Below are positions 53,260 through 61,771 of a stretch of 64,000 nucleotides of DNA, piece after piece. This stretch comes from Salipiger pallidus (GTDB taxonomy: Bacteria > Pseudomonadota > Alphaproteobacteria > Rhodobacterales > Rhodobacteraceae), in contig NZ_BMJV01000003.1 in NCBI RefSeq assembly GCF_014643635.1, forward strand, positions 62,001 to 126,000. Direction: 5' to 3'. The translations under genes and the position numbers were made by a program. Within the stretch, counting starts at the first letter, position 1; each line of letters opens with the position of its first letter. The notes beneath the pieces were generated by a model. That model saw only the letters and a list, made by a program, of their open reading frames with translations. It made no database searches and was not told where the DNA came from.

Positions 53260-53655
53260 ATGGCCAAAGCCATCCACAGCATGATCCGCGTCCTAGATGA
53301 GGACCGCTCGGTCGCCTTCTACGACACCGCCTTCGGGCTCAAGGTCGCGGAGCGGCTCGATTTCGACAGCTTCACGCTGGTCTACCTGTCGAACCCAGAG
53401 TCGGAGTTCGAGCTGGAGCTGACGGTGAACAAGGACCAGTCCGAACCTTACGATCTGGGCAATGGCTACGGCCATTTCGCCGTGTCGGTCGAGGATGTCG
53501 CCGCCGAGCACGCGCGCTTCACCGAGGCCGGCCTGAACCCCCGCAAGCTGGTGGATTTCGCCCCGGGCGGAGAAGTCATCGCACGGTTCTTCTTCGTGCA
53601 GGACCCTGACGGTTACGAGATCGAGGTGCTGCAGCGGGGCGGACGCTACCTCTGA
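53260..53655 (+). CDS. Glyoxalase I-like VOC superfamily protein (lactoylglutathione lyase-like)
   Basis: 131 aa. VOC beta-alpha modules: [20 protein letters not shown], then [20 protein letters not shown] and a C-terminal [15 protein letters not shown]. Candidate metal ligands are H6, E56 region, H72 and E126. The sequence pattern (MIRV...S..FY....G) is that of gloA-type lactoylglutathione lyase, although true GloA is usually longer. Divergent from dapD with 75 bp between the starts. Confidence 0.85.
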
Positions 53656-53870: not shown

Positions 53871-53899
53871 TTGCGGAATCGCGGTGCGGCGCGTATATC
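53871..53899 (+). promoter_or_regulatory. Promoter of the rimP-nusA-ylxR-infB operon
   Basis: TTGCGG (53871-53876), exactly 17 nt, then TATATC (53894-53899). The predicted start near 53906 gives a leader of about 105 nt before the rimP ATG at 54012. Confidence 0.7.
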
Positions 53900-53954
53900 C
53901 CCCCTCAATAGCGGCGCGTTCGGAGCTTCTCCGGGGCCCACCGGGAAAGATACG

Positions 53955-53977
53955 ACGGGCCGCGCGCCCGTTTTTTT
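53955..53977 (+). terminator. Intrinsic terminator inside the rimP leader (possible attenuator)
   Basis: ACGGGC, loop cgcgc, GCCCGT followed by seven T (53971-53977). It lies 35 nt before the rimP start and downstream of the predicted promoter, so it would cut the operon transcript unless read through. GGCCC at 53935-53939 could pair with GGGCC at 53957-53961, an alternative stem that would break the terminator. Confidence 0.8.
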
Positions 53978-54011
53978 GTGCCGTAATCGGACCTCAACCG
54001 GACCCGGAGAC

Positions 54012-54605
54012 ATGACAGACCTGATCGCCAAGACCTCCATCGACAAGCGCATCGCCGAGATCGTCACCCCCGTCATCGAGGACATGGGGTTCGAGCTTGT
54101 GCGCCTCCGCCTGATGAGCGGCAAGACCGCCACGCTTCAGATCATGGCCGAGCGCCCCGAGGGCGGTGTCGAGATCGACGAGCTGGGCGAAATTTCGACC
54201 GCCATTTCCGCCGTACTTGATGTCGAAGACCCGATCATCGACACCTACGTGCTCGAGGTCGGCAGCCCCGGCGTCGACCGTCCGCTGACGCGGCTCAAGG
54301 ATTTCGAGACTTACGAAGGCTATGACGCCAAGATTCAGACCGAAGAGTTGGTGGATGGGCGCAAGCGCTGGCAGGGCATCCTGGCCGGTGTCGAGGGCGG
54401 CGAAGTGCTGCTCAACATCGAAGAGGATGGCGAGACGCAGACCATCGGCCTGCAGTTTGACTGGTTGGCCGATGCCAAGCTGATCCTGACCGACGACCTC
54501 ATGCGCGAGATGCTCAAAGCCCGCAAGGCGCGCGATGGCAACGACGCGGATGCATCGACTTTCGACGAAATTCAGGCCGACGACGCGGCCACCGACGAGG
54601 AGTAA
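54012..54605 (+). CDS. rimP: Ribosome maturation factor RimP
   Basis: 197 aa. N-terminal DUF150 domain: [18 protein letters not shown]-type start ([16 protein letters not shown]), then [16 protein letters not shown] and [15 protein letters not shown], the family hallmark. The C-terminal SH3-like part is followed by an acidic tail ([20 protein letters not shown]). It assists 30S maturation. It heads the operon; ATG 54012 follows CCGGAGAC. nusA starts 7 nt after its stop. Confidence 0.94.
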
Positions 54606-54612
54606 GACCCCC

Positions 54613-56247
54613 ATGGCAATCACCTCTGCCAACCAGCTCGAGCTGCTTCAGACCGCCGAGGCCGTCGCGCGCGAGAAGATGATCGACCCGGCTCTCGTGA
54701 TCGAGGCTATGGAAGAGTCGCTCGCCCGCGCCGCCAAGAGCCGCTACGGCTCCGAGATGGACATCCGCGTTAAGATCGACCGCAAGACCGGCCGGGCGAC
54801 CTTTACCCGGGTGCGCACCGTGGTCGAAGACGAGCTTCTGGAAAACTACCAGGCCGAGTTCACCGTGAAGCAGGCCAAGCAGTACATGGCCGACCCGCAG
54901 GTGGGCGACACCTACGAAGAAGAAGTTCCGCCTGTGGATCTTGGCCGGATCGCGGCCCAGTCGGCCAAGCAGGTGATCCTGCAAAAGGTCCGCGAAGCCG
55001 AGCGTGATCGCCAGTACGACGAATTCAAGGACCGCAACGGCACCATCATCAACGGTACCGTCAAGCGCGAGGAATACGGCAACGTCATCGTCGACATCGG
55101 CCGTGGCGAGGGCATCCTGCGCCGCAATGACAAGATCGGCCGCGAGGCCTATCGCCCCGGCGATCGCATCCGCTGCTACATCAAGGATGTGCGCCGCGAA
55201 GTGCGCGGCCCGCAGATCTTCCTGTCGCGCACCGCGCCGGAATTCATGGCCGAGCTGTTCAAGATGGAAGTGCCGGAAATCTACGACGGCATCATCGAGA
55301 TCAAGGCTGTGGCCCGTGATCCCGGTTCGCGCGCCAAGATCGGCGTCATCTCCTATGATAATTCCATCGACCCCGTCGGTGCCTGCGTCGGTATGCGCGG
55401 CAGCCGCGTTCAGGCCGTCGTGAACGAGCTTCAGGGCGAGAAAATCGACATCATCCCGTGGAACGAGGATATGCCGACCTTCCTCGTGAACGCCCTGCAG
55501 CCCGCAGAGGTGAGCAAGGTGGTGCTCGACGAGGACGCCGAGCGCATCGAGGTCGTTGTGCCCGACGAGCAGCTGTCGCTGGCGATTGGCCGCCGTGGTC
55601 AGAACGTGCGCCTTGCGTCGCAGCTGACCGGCCTCGACATCGACATCATGACCGAAGAGGAAGAATCGAAGCGCCGTCAGGCCGAGTTCGAGCAGCGCAC
55701 CAAGCTGTTCATGGACACGCTGGATCTCGACGAGTTCTTCGCCCAGCTTCTGGTGTCCGAAGGCTTTACCAACCTCGAGGAAGTGGCCTACGTCGAGCTG
55801 GACGAGCTGCTGGTCATTGACGGTGTCGACGAGGACACCGCGCAGGAACTGCAGACCCGTGCCCGCGAGAACCTCGAGGAACAGGCCCGCAAGGCTCTGG
55901 AACACGCTCGTGAACTGGGTGCAGAGGACAGCCTCATTGACTTCGACGGCCTCACTCCCCAAATGGTAGAGGCACTTGCCGAGGACGGCGTGAAGACCCT
56001 CGAGGACTTCGCGACCTGCGCGGACTGGGAACTGGCCGGCGGCTGGACCGTCGTGGACGGCAAGCGTGTGAAGGACGATGGCCTTCTCGAGACGTTCAAT
56101 GTCGATCTTGCCGAAGCTCAGAACCTCATCATGACCGCACGCGTCATGCTGGGCTGGGTCGATCCGACCGAGCTCGAGGCGGACGAGGAAGAGGGTGACG
56201 ATCTCGAGATCGACGCCGAAGAAGACACCGACGAGGAGCAGGCCTGA
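54613..56247 (+). CDS. nusA: Transcription termination/antitermination factor NusA
   Basis: 544 aa. N-terminal RNAP-binding domain ([20 protein letters not shown]), S1 domain (about residues 135-200; [17 protein letters not shown]), KH1/KH2 ([38 protein letters not shown]) and two C-terminal helix-hairpin-helix regions, ending in an acidic tail. It controls pausing, termination and antitermination, and is a candidate for autoregulating this operon through the leader terminator. Confidence 0.96.
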
Positions 56248-56249
56248 AC

Positions 56250-56912
56250 ATGAGCCGGGGCGGCGCACAGAAAAACCGCGAGGACGGCCCGGAACGCCGC
56301 TGTATCGCCACGGGCGAAACGGAACCGGCGTCCGGACTGATCCGCTTCGTGGTGGGGCCGGAGGGGCAGGTTGTGCCTGACCTCGCCGGCAAGCTGCCCG
56401 GGCGCGGCATCTGGGTGTCTTCGGAGACGAAGGCGCTCGAGACTGCCGAGAAGAAGGGCCTCTTCAAACGGGCCGCGAAGGCTCCGGTCACCGTACCGGA
56501 AAACCTTCCGGTGCTCGTGGAACAGATGTTGGCGCGCAGGGTGGTGGAACTCATCAGCCTCGCACGCAAGTCCGGCGCCGCGGTGGCGGGCTATGAAAAG
56601 GTCAAGGACTGGCTTGGGCGTGAGGACGCCGATGTGCTGATCCAGGCCGAGGACGGGTCGTCTCGCGGCAAGTCCAAATTGTCTACTCCCCCCTGGGGGA
56701 CCTATATCGGTTGGCTCACTGCGGATGAACTTGGGCTGGCCTTCGGTCGTGAAAAGGTGATACATGCCGCGCTTGGCGCTGGCGGACTCACCAAACGTGT
56801 TGTAGAGGAGGCCCGACGACTGAAGGGCCTGCGTGTCGGTGCGTCCGACGCGAAAACGGTGGCAGGGGCCACCGGGGGCGGCAGCGGCCGCCGGAAAGGA
56901 CGAGAGAGCTGA
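56250..56912 (+). CDS. YlxR (DUF448)/L7Ae-like RNA-binding protein
   Basis: 220 aa. N-terminal YlxR segment with RCIATGE and LPGRGIWVS; the middle part (LISLARKSGAAVAGYEKVKD) is L7Ae-like, as in many alphaproteobacterial nusA-infB operons. The C-terminal tail is Gly/Lys-rich (VAGATGGGSGRRKGRES). It is placed directly between nusA (2-nt gap) and infB (no gap), so it is co-transcribed. A role in nusA/infB control or RNA binding is inferred. Confidence 0.9.
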   Translation: MSRGGAQKNREDGPERRCIATGETEPASGLIRFVVGPEGQVVPDLAGKLPGRGIWVSSETKALETAEKKGLFKRAAKAPVTVPENLPVLVEQMLARRVVELISLARKSGAAVAGYEKVKDWLGREDADVLIQAEDGSSRGKSKLSTPPWGTYIGWLTADELGLAFGREKVIHAALGAGGLTKRVVEEARRLKGLRVGASDAKTVAGATGGGSGRRKGRES

Positions 56913-59402
56913 ATGAGCGATAACGACGGCAAGAAGACTTTGGGTGTACGTGGCGGAGGGCCCCGTTCGGGTTCTGTGAAGCAGAGCTTCAGCCACGGGC
57001 GTACGAAGAACGTCGTGGTGGAAACCAAGCGCAAACGCGTCGTGGTGCCCAAGCCCGCAGCGGGTGGTGGCAAAAGCGGTGCGGTTGGCGGCAGTGGCAA
57101 GCGCCCTGCGGGGATCACCGACGCCGAGATGGAGCGCCGCCTGAAGGCGCTTCAGGCTGCCAAGGCGCGCGAGGCTGGTGAAGCCGCGAAGCGCGAGGCC
57201 GAGGAAAAGGCCCGCGCCGAAGAGCGTGCACGCCAGCGCGCCGAGAAGGAACAGAAAGAGCGCGAGCAGCGCGAAGCCGAAGAGCGTCTCAAGGCCAAGG
57301 CCGAAGAAGAGCGCAAGGCTGCCGAGGCCGCCGAGGCTGCGAAGGTTGCCAAGAAGGCCGAGGCATCCGCACCTGCTGCTGCGGCGGCACCGGCCGCGGA
57401 CCGCGCGGCGCCTGCCGGCGCCAAGCCCGCCCCGAGCCCACAACGCAAGGCCGACCGCGAGCGCGAAGAGCGTGGCCGGTCTGCCCGTGGCCGCGATGAT
57501 GGCAACCGCCGCTCCGGCAAGCTGACCCTGAACCAGGCGCTTGGTGGTGAAGGTGGCCGTCAGAAGTCCATGGCCGCGATGAAGCGCAAGCAGGAGCGTG
57601 CGCGTCAGAAGGCGATGGGCGGCAGCCAGCAGCGCGAGAAGATTGTGCGCGACGTTCAGCTGCCCGAGGCCATCACGGTCGCGGAACTGGCGAACCGCAT
57701 GGCGGAACGCGTGGCTGACGTGGTCAAGTCGCTGATGAACAGCGGCATCATGGCGACGCAGAACCAGTCGATCGACGCTGACACCGCGGAACTCATCATC
57801 GAAGAGTTCGGCCACCGTGTGACCCGCGTTTCCGACGCGGACGTTGAAGACGTCATCAAGACAGTTGACGACAAGCCGGAAGATCTGCAGGGCCGCCCGC
57901 CGGTCATCACGATCATGGGTCACGTCGACCACGGCAAGACGTCGCTGCTCGACAAGATTCGCGAAGCCAACGTGACCTCCGGCGAAGCCGGCGGCATCAC
58001 CCAGCACATCGGCGCCTACCAGGTGACGACGAAGGGCGGCGACGTGCTGACCTTCCTCGATACCCCGGGCCACGCCGCCTTCACTTCCATGCGCTCCCGT
58101 GGTGCACAGGTGACGGACATCGTGGTGCTGGTGGTCGCGGCGGATGACGCCGTCATGCCGCAGACGGTCGAAGCCATTGCACACGCCAAGGCGGCGGGTG
58201 TGCCGATGATCGTCGCTATCAACAAGGTCGACAAGCACGAGGCGAACCCGACCAAGGTCCGCACCGATCTGCTGCAGCACGAAGTGGTCGTCGAGGCCAT
58301 GTCGGGCGACGTGCAGGATGTCGAAGTCTCGGCCCACACCGGGCAGGGCCTTGACGAACTGCTCGAAGCTATCGCGCTGCAGGCCGAGGTTCTCGAACTG
58401 AAGGCCAACCCCGACCGCGCCGCCGAAGGTGCCGTGATCGAGGCGCAGCTGGATGTGGGCCGTGGCCCCGTTGCGACCGTTCTCGTTCAGAACGGCACGC
58501 TCAAGCAGGGTGACATCTTCGTCGTGGGCGAGCAGTACGGCAAGGTCCGTGCGCTCATCAACGACAAGGGCGAGCGCGTGAAGGAAGCCGGTCCGTCGGT
58601 TCCGGTCGAGGTGCTTGGTCTCAACGGCACGCCGGAGGCGGGCGACGTTCTCAACGTCACCAGCACCGAGGCACAGGCCCGTGAGATCGCAGAGTACCGT
58701 GAACACGCAGCCAAGGAGAAGCGCGCCGCCGCCGGTGCCGCGACCACCCTTGAGCAGCTGATGAAGAAGGCCAAAGACGACAAGAACGTGTCGGAACTGC
58801 CGGTGGTTGTGAAAGCCGACGTGCAGGGGTCTGCTGAGGCGATCGTTCAGGCGCTCGAGAAGGTCGGCAACGACGAGGTCCGCGTGCGGGTCATCCACTA
58901 CGGTGTGGGTGCCATCACCGAGACCGACATCGGTCTTGCCGAAGCGTCGGGCTGCCCGGTCATCGGCTTCAACGTCCGTGCCAACGCGCCTGCGCGCAAC
59001 AGCGCGAACCAGAAGGGTGTGGAGATCCGCTACTACTCGGTGATCTACGACCTCGTGGACGACGTAAAAGCAGCGGCCTCGGGCCTGCTGTCCAACGAGA
59101 TCCGCGAGAACTTCATCGGTTACGCCGAGATCCGCGAAGTCTTTAAGGTGTCGAACGTTGGCAAGGTTGCCGGCTGTCTCGTTACCGAGGGTGTGGCGCG
59201 TCGTTCCGCAGGTGTCCGCCTGCTGCGCGACAATGTGGTGATCCACGAAGGCACGCTGAAGACGCTCAAGCGCTTCAAGGACGAGGTTCCCGAGGTCCAG
59301 TCCGGCCAGGAATGCGGCATGGCCTTCGAAGCCTACGAGGATGTTCGCCAGGGCGACGTCATCGAGATCTTCGAGCGCGAGGAGGTTGAGCGGTCGCTCT
59401 GA
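56913..59402 (+). CDS. infB: Translation initiation factor IF-2
   Basis: 829 aa. The N-terminal region (about residues 65-200) is a long Ala/Lys/Glu helix ([20 protein letters not shown]) typical of IF-2. GTPase motifs are intact: G1 [18 protein letters not shown], and NKVD in [13 protein letters not shown]. The C-terminal domains with [15 protein letters not shown]-type segments bind initiator tRNA. It ends the operon and is followed by a strong terminator. Confidence 0.97.
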
Positions 59403-59426
59403 TCGTTGCCTGATCCAAAGAATTGA

Positions 59427-59457
59427 AGGGGCGGTACCTGCTGGTGCCGCCCTTTTT
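59427..59457 (+). terminator. Terminator of the rimP-infB operon
   Basis: AGGGGCGGTACC, loop tgct, GGTGCCGCCC, then TTTTT. Confidence 0.93.
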
Positions 59458-59704
59458 CATTGCCGGAAGACCGGACAAGAGCGCGGAATTTGGAGGTAAG
59501 AGCCTGACGAAGCTCCAGCGTGGTGCATGTCACTGCAAATAGTAGAGGCAAGCATCGACTTGGTTACGCGCTGCTGAGCTTGGCATGGAAGCAACTGCAT
59601 TGCAGTTAACCCGAAAGGCCTGTCAGGCAGCGCGTTGCGGGCCCGAAGCCGCCTTGGCATTGGCTTGCGGAGGGGCCTGAGGTTTGTCTGGGGGCCGGAC
59701 AGCG

Positions 59705-59734
59705 AAAAGCCCGGCCGTTTAGGGTCGGGCTTTC
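59705..59734 (-). terminator. Terminator of the 42-residue gene
   Basis: Minus strand AAAGCCCGACCC, loop taaac, GGCCGGGCTTTT (with G-T wobble), 33 nt after the stop at 59767. Confidence 0.72.
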
Positions 59735-59766
59735 GTGGTAATGTTCAAGAGAGCGTTGCGAGCGGT

Positions 59767-59895
59767 TTAGGCTGCGACCGGTGTGCCGGTGAAGACCTGG
59801 GTGCCGACCCGCACAGCGATGCGTCCATCCGGGAGCTTCTGTTCAAGAATGCCCTGGACGGAGACGCAACTGCCAAGAACGATCGTACGCAGCAT
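59767..59895 (-). CDS. Very small conserved-looking protein, 42 aa
   Basis: 42 codons from ATG (complement of 59893-59895) to TAA (59767-59769). It reads MLRTIVLGSCVSVQGILEQK, then a Leu-Pro-Asp-Gly turn, then RIAVRVGTQVFTGTPVAA. The alternating hydrophobic beta pattern with Gly turns looks like a small SH3-like barrel. It ends with a normal stop and an intrinsic terminator 33 nt later, and the upstream 100 bp are AT-rich. It is shorter than usual annotation cut-offs. No signal peptide; function unknown. Confidence 0.65.
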   Translation of the reverse strand: MLRTIVLGSCVSVQGILEQKLPDGRIAVRVGTQVFTGTPVAA

Positions 59896-60054
59896 TTCCA
59901 GTGTTCCCCAATCAGATACAAGAAACTCACGGATATCGGGAAAACGTTAAAATCTCCACAAGAAATAATCGGTACTGCGACTAATTGTTGTGCAATCGTG
60001 AGTATTTCTTAAAATATTCTTGCTGCAGCGCAGAAATTCCTGGACTTCCGGATC

Positions 60055-60456
60055 TCAGAGCCAGTCCCGCAGGATCGGGATCAGCGGCAGGTCCGCGGGG
60101 GGCATGGGGTAATCGCGCAGCTGGTTCGGCCTGACCCATTTCAGCGCCTGACCTTCTTTCGGCTGAGGCGTGCCCTGCCACTTGCGGCAGGCAAACAGCG
60201 GCATCAGCAGGTGGAAATCATCGTAGGCGTGCGAGGCGAAGGTCAGAGGCGCAAGGCAGCTTTCCCAAGTGTCTATGCCCAGCTCTTCTTGCAGTTCGCG
60301 GATCAGGGCATGTTCGGGGCTTTCGCCCGCTTCGACCTTGCCACCGGGGAATTCCCAGAGGCCTGCGAGAGACTTCCCCTCGGGCCGCTGGGCCAGAAGG
60401 ACGCGGCCGTCGGTGTCGATAAGGGCGACGGCGGAAACGAGGACGATATGGGCCAT
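60055..60456 (-). CDS. mutT: Nudix (deoxy)nucleoside triphosphate pyrophosphohydrolase, MutT family
   Basis: 133 aa. Nudix box GGKVEAGESPEHALIREL plus QEELGI matches the consensus; the N-terminal LVSAVALIDTDGRVLLAQRP and the C-terminal LKWVRPNQLRDYPMPPAD are MutT features. It should hydrolyse 8-oxo-dGTP, removing a mutagenic precursor. ATG 60456 was chosen because the conserved fold starts there; upstream sequence contains the repeat element. Confidence 0.9.
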   Translation of the reverse strand: MAHIVLVSAVALIDTDGRVLLAQRPEGKSLAGLWEFPGGKVEAGESPEHALIRELQEELGIDTWESCLAPLTFASHAYDDFHLLMPLFACRKWQGTPQPKEGQALKWVRPNQLRDYPMPPADLPLIPILRDWL

Positions 60457-60504
60457 GCGGAGCTCCTGGCGGCAACGCCGGAGCGAGGGGCCAGCCCCTC
60501 GCGC

Positions 60505-60535
60505 TCCCCGGCATATTTGAAAAGAGAAGAAGGGG
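60505..60535 (+). repeat. Recurrent intergenic element, copy 4
   Basis: TCCCCGGCATATTTGAAAAG plus AGAAGAAGGGG at 60505-60535, between argJ and mutT, matching the elements at 12299 and 31161. A small GGGGcca/gcCCCT hairpin precedes it. Confidence 0.7.
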
Positions 60536-60541
60536 CGGGCG

Positions 60542-61771
60542 TCAGGACCGGTAGTCGGCGTTGATGCTGATGTAGCCGTGGGTGAGATCGCAGGTCCAGA
60601 CGGTAGCCTTGCCACCACCCAAGCCGATGTCGACGTTTATGATGATCTCGGGCTGCTTCATCACGCTCGCGCCGTCGGCCTCCTTGTAGGAGGGAGCGAC
60701 CCAGCCCTTTTCCGCGACGAGGATGTCGCCGAAGCTGATCGACAGCATGTCGCGTTCGGCGGCGGCGCCGGATTTGCCGATGGCCATGACGATGCGGCCC
60801 CAGTTGGGGTCCTCGCCGGCGATCGCGGTCTTGACCAGCGGCGAGTTGGCGATGGCCATGGCATGGGTGCGGGCGTCGGTGTCGGATTCAGCGCCGGTGA
60901 CGTTGACCGTGACAAACTTGGTCGCGCCTTCGCCGTCCTTCACCACCTGGTGGGCGAGGTCGAGGAATACCCCCTCAAGCGCTTCGGCAAAGGCGGCGTC
61001 AGCGGACGTGACCGAGACGCCCGAGGCACCGGTGGCACCCATCAGCAGGCTGTCGGAGGTCGAGGTGTCGCTGTCGACGGTGATGCAGTTGAAGCTGCGA
61101 TCGTTGATTTCCGAGACCATGCGCTGCAGGTCAGCGCGCGAGACCTTCGCGTCAGTGAAGATGTAGACCAGCATCGTCGCCATGTCGGGCGCAATCATCC
61201 CTGAGCCCTTGGCAAAGCCCGCGATCTTCACCGGGCCGCCGGGCAGGTTCACGGTGGCCGAAGCGCCTTTGGGGAAGGTGTCGGTGGTCATGATGGCGCG
61301 GGCGGCTTCCTCGCCCTTGGCGGCATCGAGCGCACCGTTCAGCTCATCCAGCTTGGCGATGATGCGGTCGTGGGGGAGGCGCTCGCCGATCACCCCGGTG
61401 GAACTGGTGAAGACGCGGGCAGCAGGCAGGCCGGTGGCCTCGGCGGTGGCGGCGCAGATCGCCGCGACGGACTCGTCCCCCGCAGCGCCGGTGAAGGCGT
61501 TGGAGTTGCCCGAGTTCACGAGGATCGCCGCGCCTTCGGCACCATCGCCGCCGATCTTGGCCTGGCAATCGCGCACGCAGGCGGACCGGGTCTTGGAGCG
61601 GGTGAAGACCCCGGCAACGGTGCTGCCGGGGGCCAGGAGGGTCAGCATCACGTCCGTGCGTCCCGCGTATCTCACCCCTGCCGCGACGGAGGCGTATCGC
61701 ACCCCGTCAATGACCGGAAGGTCGGGAAAGGCTGCGGGTGCGAGCGGGGAGACAGACGTGATCTTGGCCAA
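60542..61771 (-). CDS. argJ: Bifunctional ornithine acetyltransferase / N-acetylglutamate synthase
   Basis: 409 aa precursor. The autocleavage site is in GSGMIAPDMATMLVYIF (Ala-Thr, the Thr becoming the nucleophile). Other family segments: RSKTRSACVRDCQAKIG, ILVNSGNSNAFTGAAGDE, TSSTGVIGERLP and MTTDTFPKGAS. It recycles the acetyl group of N-acetylornithine to glutamate in arginine synthesis. With carB the window thus holds two arginine-pathway genes, 35 kb apart. Confidence 0.95.
   Translation of the reverse strand: MAKITSVSPLAPAAFPDLPVIDGVRYASVAAGVRYAGRTDVMLTLLAPGSTVAGVFTRSKTRSACVRDCQAKIGGDGAEGAAILVNSGNSNAFTGAAGDESVAAICAATAEATGLPAARVFTSSTGVIGERLPHDRIIAKLDELNGALDAAKGEEAARAIMTTDTFPKGASATVNLPGGPVKIAGFAKGSGMIAPDMATMLVYIFTDAKVSRADLQRMVSEINDRSFNCITVDSDTSTSDSLLMGATGASGVSVTSADAAFAEALEGVFLDLAHQVVKDGEGATKFVTVNVTGAESDTDARTHAMAIANSPLVKTAIAGEDPNWGRIVMAIGKSGAAAERDMLSISFGDILVAEKGWVAPSYKEADGASVMKQPEIIINVDIGLGGGKATVWTCDLTHGYISINADYRS

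Follow-up and report, generated by a model that had tools for sequence, protein, structure and literature searches.

A conserved leader with an intrinsic terminator ahead of rimP-nusA-ylxR-infB in the Rhodobacteraceae: a probable transcription attenuator of the rimP-leader kind

Introduction

The locus described here, from Salipiger pallidus, raises the question of whether a hairpin situated between a promoter and rimP-nusA-ylxR-infB belongs to a transcription attenuator and, if so, whether NusA, itself a product of the operon, could be the signal. In the text of Naville and Gautheret (2010; PMC2965389), the rimP-leader is the top-ranked and most frequent attenuator family, its terminator has the form GGGc...gCCC followed by a T stretch, and NusA is proposed as the regulator. 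Most rimP-leaders are presented there as lacking a larger conserved element or a visible antiterminator, while the tandem form of the Gammaproteobacteria has one. With B. subtilis, nusA is autoregulated through NusA-stimulated termination in its leader, as outlined in a review (PMC12288461). With E. coli, two terminators, t1 and t2, are located 5' of rimP and the operon is described as being influenced by NusA (PMC6511841). Within the Rhodobacteraceae, the leader of mraZ in R. sphaeroides was reported to give rise to UpsM, an abundant 206-nt small RNA, with readthrough at about 1 in 100 (PMC5089854); on that account, members of the family do use leader terminators with readthrough.

The literature searched contained nothing on a rimP leader of the Rhodobacteraceae or on its local architecture. 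Alphaproteobacteria are not named in the examined text of PMC2965389, the supplement of which lists rimP-leaders "from other species" and may include members of the Rhodobacteraceae. The examined text of Corbino et al. (2005) does not mention nusA, yhbC or infB, and nusA, rimP, and infB are likewise missing from the main text of a Sinorhizobium small-RNA survey.

Materials and Methods

The window, i.e., the whole stretch of DNA that was analyzed, has a length of 64,000 nt. The family set of 81 leaders comprised that of the window together with 80 loci kept of 539 relatives. For alignment A1, 57 of the 81 leaders were picked by eye to thin near-duplicates, and a covariance model was built from 57 leaders. 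For a set of distinct leaders, 131 of 134 sources passed; the three that were missed (L181, L185, and L186) were read separately. Five leaders (L010, L011, L013, L014, and L033) were taken out because the T run was interrupted or a pattern failed, leaving 114 distinct leaders, and the removal of six more (five in which the 5' element had been misplaced, and L195 without CAG) gave the final 108. The survey of the class covered 56 genomes in which a NusA locus was present; rimP could be placed in 48 of these, and 47 were long enough (L160 was too short). The rule applied to them was strict, requiring a terminator-like hairpin followed by a T run within the 260 nt 5' of rimP.

Results

The window carries the leader and rimP-nusA-ylxR-infB on its + strand. 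The genes, identified by Pfam, are separated by intergenic gaps of 7, 2, and 0 nt, in gene order:

54012-54605, + strand: rimP (PF02576 and PF17384; ATG at 54012)
54613-56247, + strand: nusA, the candidate feedback regulator (PF08529, PF13184)
56250-56912, + strand: ylxR (PF04296)
56913-59402, + strand: infB (PF11987, PF04760)

The host genome is Rhodobacteraceae-like with a size of 4.44 Mb, and the best named relatives of the window RimP are those of Salipiger (85% identity to S. thiooxidans). The upstream neighbor is a gene of the VOC family (53260-53655) on the same strand as the leader hairpin. Downstream of infB, no rbfA-like long ORF is present on the + strand (59403-60100), and the next long ORFs listed lie on the - strand at 60055-61771.

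A preliminary description, made from the sequence alone, had placed a TTGCGG-N17-TATATC promoter and a GC hairpin with seven T in a 105-nt leader of this operon. Each of these parts is present:

53871-53899, + strand: promoter from sequence, TTGCGG (53871-53876), 17-nt spacer, and TATATC (53894-53899); this layout is found in 80 of 81 leaders
53906-53918, + strand: 5' element, (C)AAYAGCGGYGCG, adjoining the predicted start; conservation 0.95
53954-53977, + strand: intrinsic terminator from sequence, hairpin GACGGGC-CGCGC-GCCCGTT (53954-53972) with a run of seven T (53971-53977); found in 81/81 leaders, share 0.96

Transcription is predicted to start at about 53907, which is 105 nt from the rimP ATG. 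As in a rimP-leader, rimP-nusA-infB is headed by an intrinsic terminator that separates the promoter from rimP; its stem reads GGGC-CGCGC-GCCC-GT7, and 34 nt separate the T run from the ATG, within the range of 4 to 130 nt that applies to the distance of rimP-leader terminators from the start of the gene. This gap narrows to as little as 15 nt in three relatives (L020, L027, and L043), where there is consequently no room for a promoter 3' of the hairpin; a start site at such a position, which would have spoken against a leader terminator, is thereby countered.

Taken by itself, the window sequence did not distinguish the leader. A scan of 4 kb returned no E. coli-like promoter and four terminator-like sites against 2.5 (sd 1.6) in shuffles, which is not beyond chance, and the folding energy of the leader gave z = 0.00. 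The only known Rfam family found at gathering threshold in the whole window was one tRNA. At E values up to 10, the leader region matched Bp1_162 (minus strand) and SorX, both at chance level. The Rfam rimP model, RF01770 (gathering threshold 47 bits), had no match at the window leader; above the cut-off it was found in 0 of 21 genomes near the window and 1 of 14 control genomes, and its one weak match in the window's own genome (E 7.55) was on another contig. Clearly, it is the conservation among relatives, and not the window alone, that points to an element.

With relaxed patterns, the terminator and the 5' element were both found in all 81 Rhodobacteraceae leaders (window plus best 80 of 539 relatives); stricter patterns applied earlier to the same leaders had yielded 80 and 75, respectively. 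In this set, TTGNNN-N17-TATA(T/C) with a spacing of 17 nt was found in 80, and the leaders align from the -35 box through the T run. The mean share of the commonest letter per column was highest in the terminator (0.96), the 5' element (0.95), and the -10 box (0.93), followed by the -35 box (0.86), the promoter spacer (0.54), and the DNA upstream of the -35 box (0.46). The 5' element has the consensus AAYAGCGGYG and is near-invariant among family leaders; its AACAGC occurs in 100 of the 108 distinct leaders, and 101 of the 108 have GGGCCGC at the start of the terminator, followed by two variable letters. The -35 box in many relatives is a piece of a longer common word, TTGCAGACTC, that is kept past the hexamer; its counterpart in the window (53871-53880) is TTGCGGAATC.

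The covariance model matched 238 of the 244 genomes of the order and all 100 genera; as read from the table, two matches occurred in each of G541 and G552 and one in every remaining matched genome. In all 34 family loci checked, rimP was directly 3' of the leader. The six genomes without a match all belong to one genus, g294, and 20 rimP loci of that genus, including that of one missed genome (G417, L193), nevertheless carry both 5' element and leader terminator (20/20). Conservation of the hairpin in relatives, a check named in advance by the preliminary description, did not refute its claim of a terminator within this leader. The polarity of the terminator stem is reversed in three of the 20 g294 loci (L181, L185, and L186), where it reads GGCCC...GGGCC, against the GGGc...gCCC rule of rimP-leaders.

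Beyond the family, the whole leader could not be traced by sequence. The leader model R1 matched 6 of 385 genomes of the class; five are of the window's family and the sixth (G368, a weak match of 29.4 bits) was rejected as a homologous leader, rimP being absent from its locus. Class-wide homology of the whole leader was accordingly discarded for this sequence-specific model, which does not reach other families. A terminator-like hairpin as such was found in 31 of the 47 rimP leaders of the class, compared to 29 of 940 shuffles, and in 29 of 45 upon exclusion of two family members. The figure of 31/47 is a low estimate because the rimP start was mis-set in some loci; further hairpins, visible by eye (bulges, mis-set starts), were left out of it. 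Of the 29 class hairpins outside the family, 22 have GTGGGC in the left arm. A terminator that starts with GTGGGC and has variable loops was seen in most non-family rimP leaders (L094-L121, L151-L168), indicating a stem sequence conserved across the class. The class-wide result agrees with the ranking of rimP in first place, and with the conserved GGGc...gCCC terminator, in the text of Naville and Gautheret (PMC2965389).

Three further segments of the leader enter the folds proposed for it:

53912-53943, + strand: hairpin P1, the anti-antiterminator in the model; based on covariation, with its pairing in the window taken from a constrained fold
53911-53919, + strand: proposed 5' strand of the antiterminator, GCGGC-G-CGT; from a fold with enforced core, without covariation
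53955-53963, + strand: proposed 3' strand of the antiterminator, ACG-G-GCCGC, overlapping the terminator in its left arm and loop; core GCGG/CCGC in 105/108 leaders

P1 was found by RNAalifold immediately 3' of the 5' element. In alignment A1, 87.2% of its cells are paired, and 52 cells carry double-sided changes, compared to 18.0 (sd 4.4) in shuffles, none of 500 reaching this number; slid versions of P1 have only 11 to 20. Because relatedness is lost in the shuffles, this covariation, though strong, is not to be read as a probability. In many cases the apical loop of P1 reads GUCCAAAC or a near variant of it within a hairpin that is otherwise variable (e.g., L027, L032, L045, L070, L188-L196), and contact with a protein or RNA at this loop is possible. 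Between P1 and the terminator, CCACCGGGAAA (53936-53953) has a mean commonest-letter share of 0.77, yet it is unpaired in the fold made of P1 and terminator.

The preliminary description had also proposed GGCCC as the strand that competes for the left arm of the terminator. This pentamer does exist in the window (53935-53939) and pairs with the left arm in the predicted minimum-energy fold, but it is not conserved, being found between 5' element and terminator in only 6 of 108 leaders. What is conserved as a partner of the left arm is instead the extreme 5' end of the transcript (53911-53919), where the GCGG of the 5' element is complementary to CCGC of the terminator left arm and loop in 105 of the 108 distinct leaders. 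Each of the seven core pairs can form in 53 to 57 of the 57 leaders of A1. Windows of coding DNA matched the left half of the terminator as well as the 5' element does at a median of 1% (mean 3.6%), and shuffled 5' elements reached equal complementarity in 11% on average. In genus g294, the complement to the 5' element is kept in 20/20 loci notwithstanding shifts of the stem, and in 3/3 of those with an inverted stem. The loops there are CCGCU (16/20), CCGC (3/20), and CCGUUG (one), the last still able to pair with CAGCGG with the help of a G-U pair. Among permuted loops, 4% on average were as complementary.

Covariation was absent from the antiterminator core, with 78.5% of cells paired versus 78.6% in shuffles (344/500; A1). 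The swap test of 5' element against terminator, in which the 3' arm of P1 was cut short in some rows, gave a small gain (-19.02 vs. -18.47; 1/300) that is confounded by relatedness. Folding energies were close for the two enforced states, differing by a mean of 1.2 kcal/mol (sd 3.6) and by no more than 3 kcal/mol in 63 of 105 leaders; the antiterminator state was the better in 31 of 105, including the window, where it was favored by 5.5 kcal/mol (-30.2 vs. -24.7 kcal/mol). The antiterminator core was predicted in 104 of 105 leaders before the right arm of the terminator is made. At equilibrium, the complete leader gave a terminator probability above 0.5 in 49 of 105 leaders and an antiterminator probability above 0.5 in 14, with neither clearly favored. 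Both probabilities are near zero in the window because a third fold, that with the GGCCC pairing, dominates there.

The leader region also contains CUCAAUAG, which resembles the RNA of a mycobacterial NusA structure. As a NusA site this candidate was rejected: CUCAAYAG is absent from the rrn leader of one relative (L090), the only one compared, and CUCA lies 5' of the predicted start. The 16S gene of the window's own genome is cut by a contig start. No NusA site was identified in the leader.

Discussion

The element ahead of rimP, its position and conservation, the covariation of P1, and the complementarity maintained between the 5' end and the terminator are observations. Based on these, the leader is very probably an attenuator. 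Its likeness to the rimP-leader of PMC2965389 lies in a terminator ahead of rimP-nusA-infB with a G-rich 5' arm, a C-rich 3' arm, and a T stretch; compared to the description in that text, the family version adds a near-invariant 5' element, the covarying P1, and a 5' end complementary to the terminator loop. Hence the kind of attenuator is already known, and the version in the Rhodobacteraceae is likely a lineage-specific and more elaborate one that includes a conserved hairpin and probably a counter-structure. The mraZ leader, as reported in PMC5089854, is similar in being a promoter-proximal leader terminator of the same family with partial readthrough into a conserved operon; it differs in the operon concerned and in its candidate alternative fold, which was reported as not conserved in the family.

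The account that we favor, and regard as probable, is that of a transcription attenuator of the rimP-leader kind, built of P1, antiterminator, and terminator, and probably subject to feedback by NusA. The start site, termination, readthrough, switching, and NusA as the signal are each inferred, and the events would be as follows. Polymerase would start at about 53907, and the first 13 nt of the RNA (AAUAGCGGCGCG...) could pair in two exclusive ways, either with the RNA just 3', to form P1, or with the terminator, at its left arm and loop; P1 and antiterminator are mutually exclusive because both use the same 5' strand. If P1 forms first, the terminator would be free to fold, releasing a leader RNA about 71 nt long. 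Were P1 opened or bypassed, the 5' end would capture 53955-53963 and polymerase would read through into rimP-nusA-ylxR-infB.

The two arms of this model differ in their evidence: P1 covaries, while the antiterminator is conserved without covariation and its loop complement is kept through inversion of the stem. The antiterminator as drawn, which may or may not form with about equal chance, is graded in this manner because its conserved complement has to be set against the null covariation, the small swap gain, and the equilibrium folding. Alternatively, the loop and the 5' end may form a pseudoknot that is not a true antiterminator. Tentatively, and with rather less confidence, the leader might be viewed as a three-state, lineage-specific switch in which the first dozen nucleotides serve as the antiterminator strand unless captured by P1, and where NusA, or a factor reading P1 and CCACCGGGAAA, sets the choice; it would then represent an RNA class outside Rfam, present in 238 of 244 genomes.

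As the signal, NusA is the strongest candidate on account of the precedent in B. subtilis, t1 and t2 and the influence of NusA in E. coli, and the proposal in the text of Naville and Gautheret (PMC12288461; PMC6511841; PMC2965389). By analogy, we lean toward feedback by NusA on its own operon. NusA made from the operon would most probably favor the terminator, through pausing and hairpin folding, resulting in negative feedback. Attenuation with such feedback, considered plausible in the preliminary description, is the best-supported reading, by analogy with the systems covered in PMC2965389 and PMC12288461. B. subtilis and the family both have an intrinsic terminator in the nusA operon leader; stimulation by NusA was measured in the former, according to the review, and would be expected in the latter. 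The E. coli metY-rimP-nusA leader also has terminators 5' of rimP and an operon influenced by NusA, and it differs in the presence of metY and several promoters (PMC6511841). The earlier suggestion that the mechanism here would depart from that of E. coli is doubtful in light of t1 and t2 (PMC6511841) and of NusA-stimulated termination in B. subtilis (PMC12288461), as far as these accounts go. NusA is described as assisting hairpins, and pausing at U tracts, that are suboptimal. The GC-rich stem and seven T of the present terminator look near optimal, and dependence on NusA may therefore be weaker than in B. subtilis.

A simpler leader, in which NusA or another elongation factor acts directly on polymerase and hairpin while P1 and the 5' element only fold or stabilize the RNA, would require no RNA switch. 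It would conform with the text of PMC2965389, where no larger conserved element or visible antiterminator is seen for most rimP-leaders, with NusA-stimulated termination as reviewed for B. subtilis (PMC12288461), and with the antiterminator core being devoid of covariation. However, P1 covaries strongly, and the complement of the terminator loop shares nucleotides with the 5' strand of this hairpin. Moreover, the CCGC of the loop is conserved though unpaired in the terminator, with the next two positions variable, and it is kept when the stem is inverted. We thus consider an arrangement without a switch unlikely, although it is the alternative to be taken most seriously. That the leader is mainly a small-RNA gene, its terminated RNA of about 71 nt acting in trans and readthrough merely supplying the operon, appears improbable. 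UpsM provides a precedent in the family (PMC5089854), and the conserved CCACCGGGAAA is explained by neither P1 nor terminator, but the position 5' of rimP is retained in every family locus checked, the element is single-copy in nearly every genome, and rimP leader terminators occur class-wide with other sequences. Finally, the hairpin does lie 3' of the VOC family gene on the same strand, but the notion that it is only the terminator of that gene is refuted as a whole explanation and scarcely credible, given that the hairpin lies beyond a conserved promoter and about 300 nt past the upstream stop, that the leader is kept while conservation is lowest in the DNA upstream, and that L025 has a separate hairpin and T run directly 5' of the promoter.

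That NusA controls the operon encoding it has long been recognized, and the sensing mechanism of the rimP-leader was left open in the published account (PMC2965389, main text). With a leader that is single-copy, near-invariant, and about 71 nt in length, with its candidate elements mapped, and in culturable marine and photosynthetic bacteria, the question becomes testable with few mutations.
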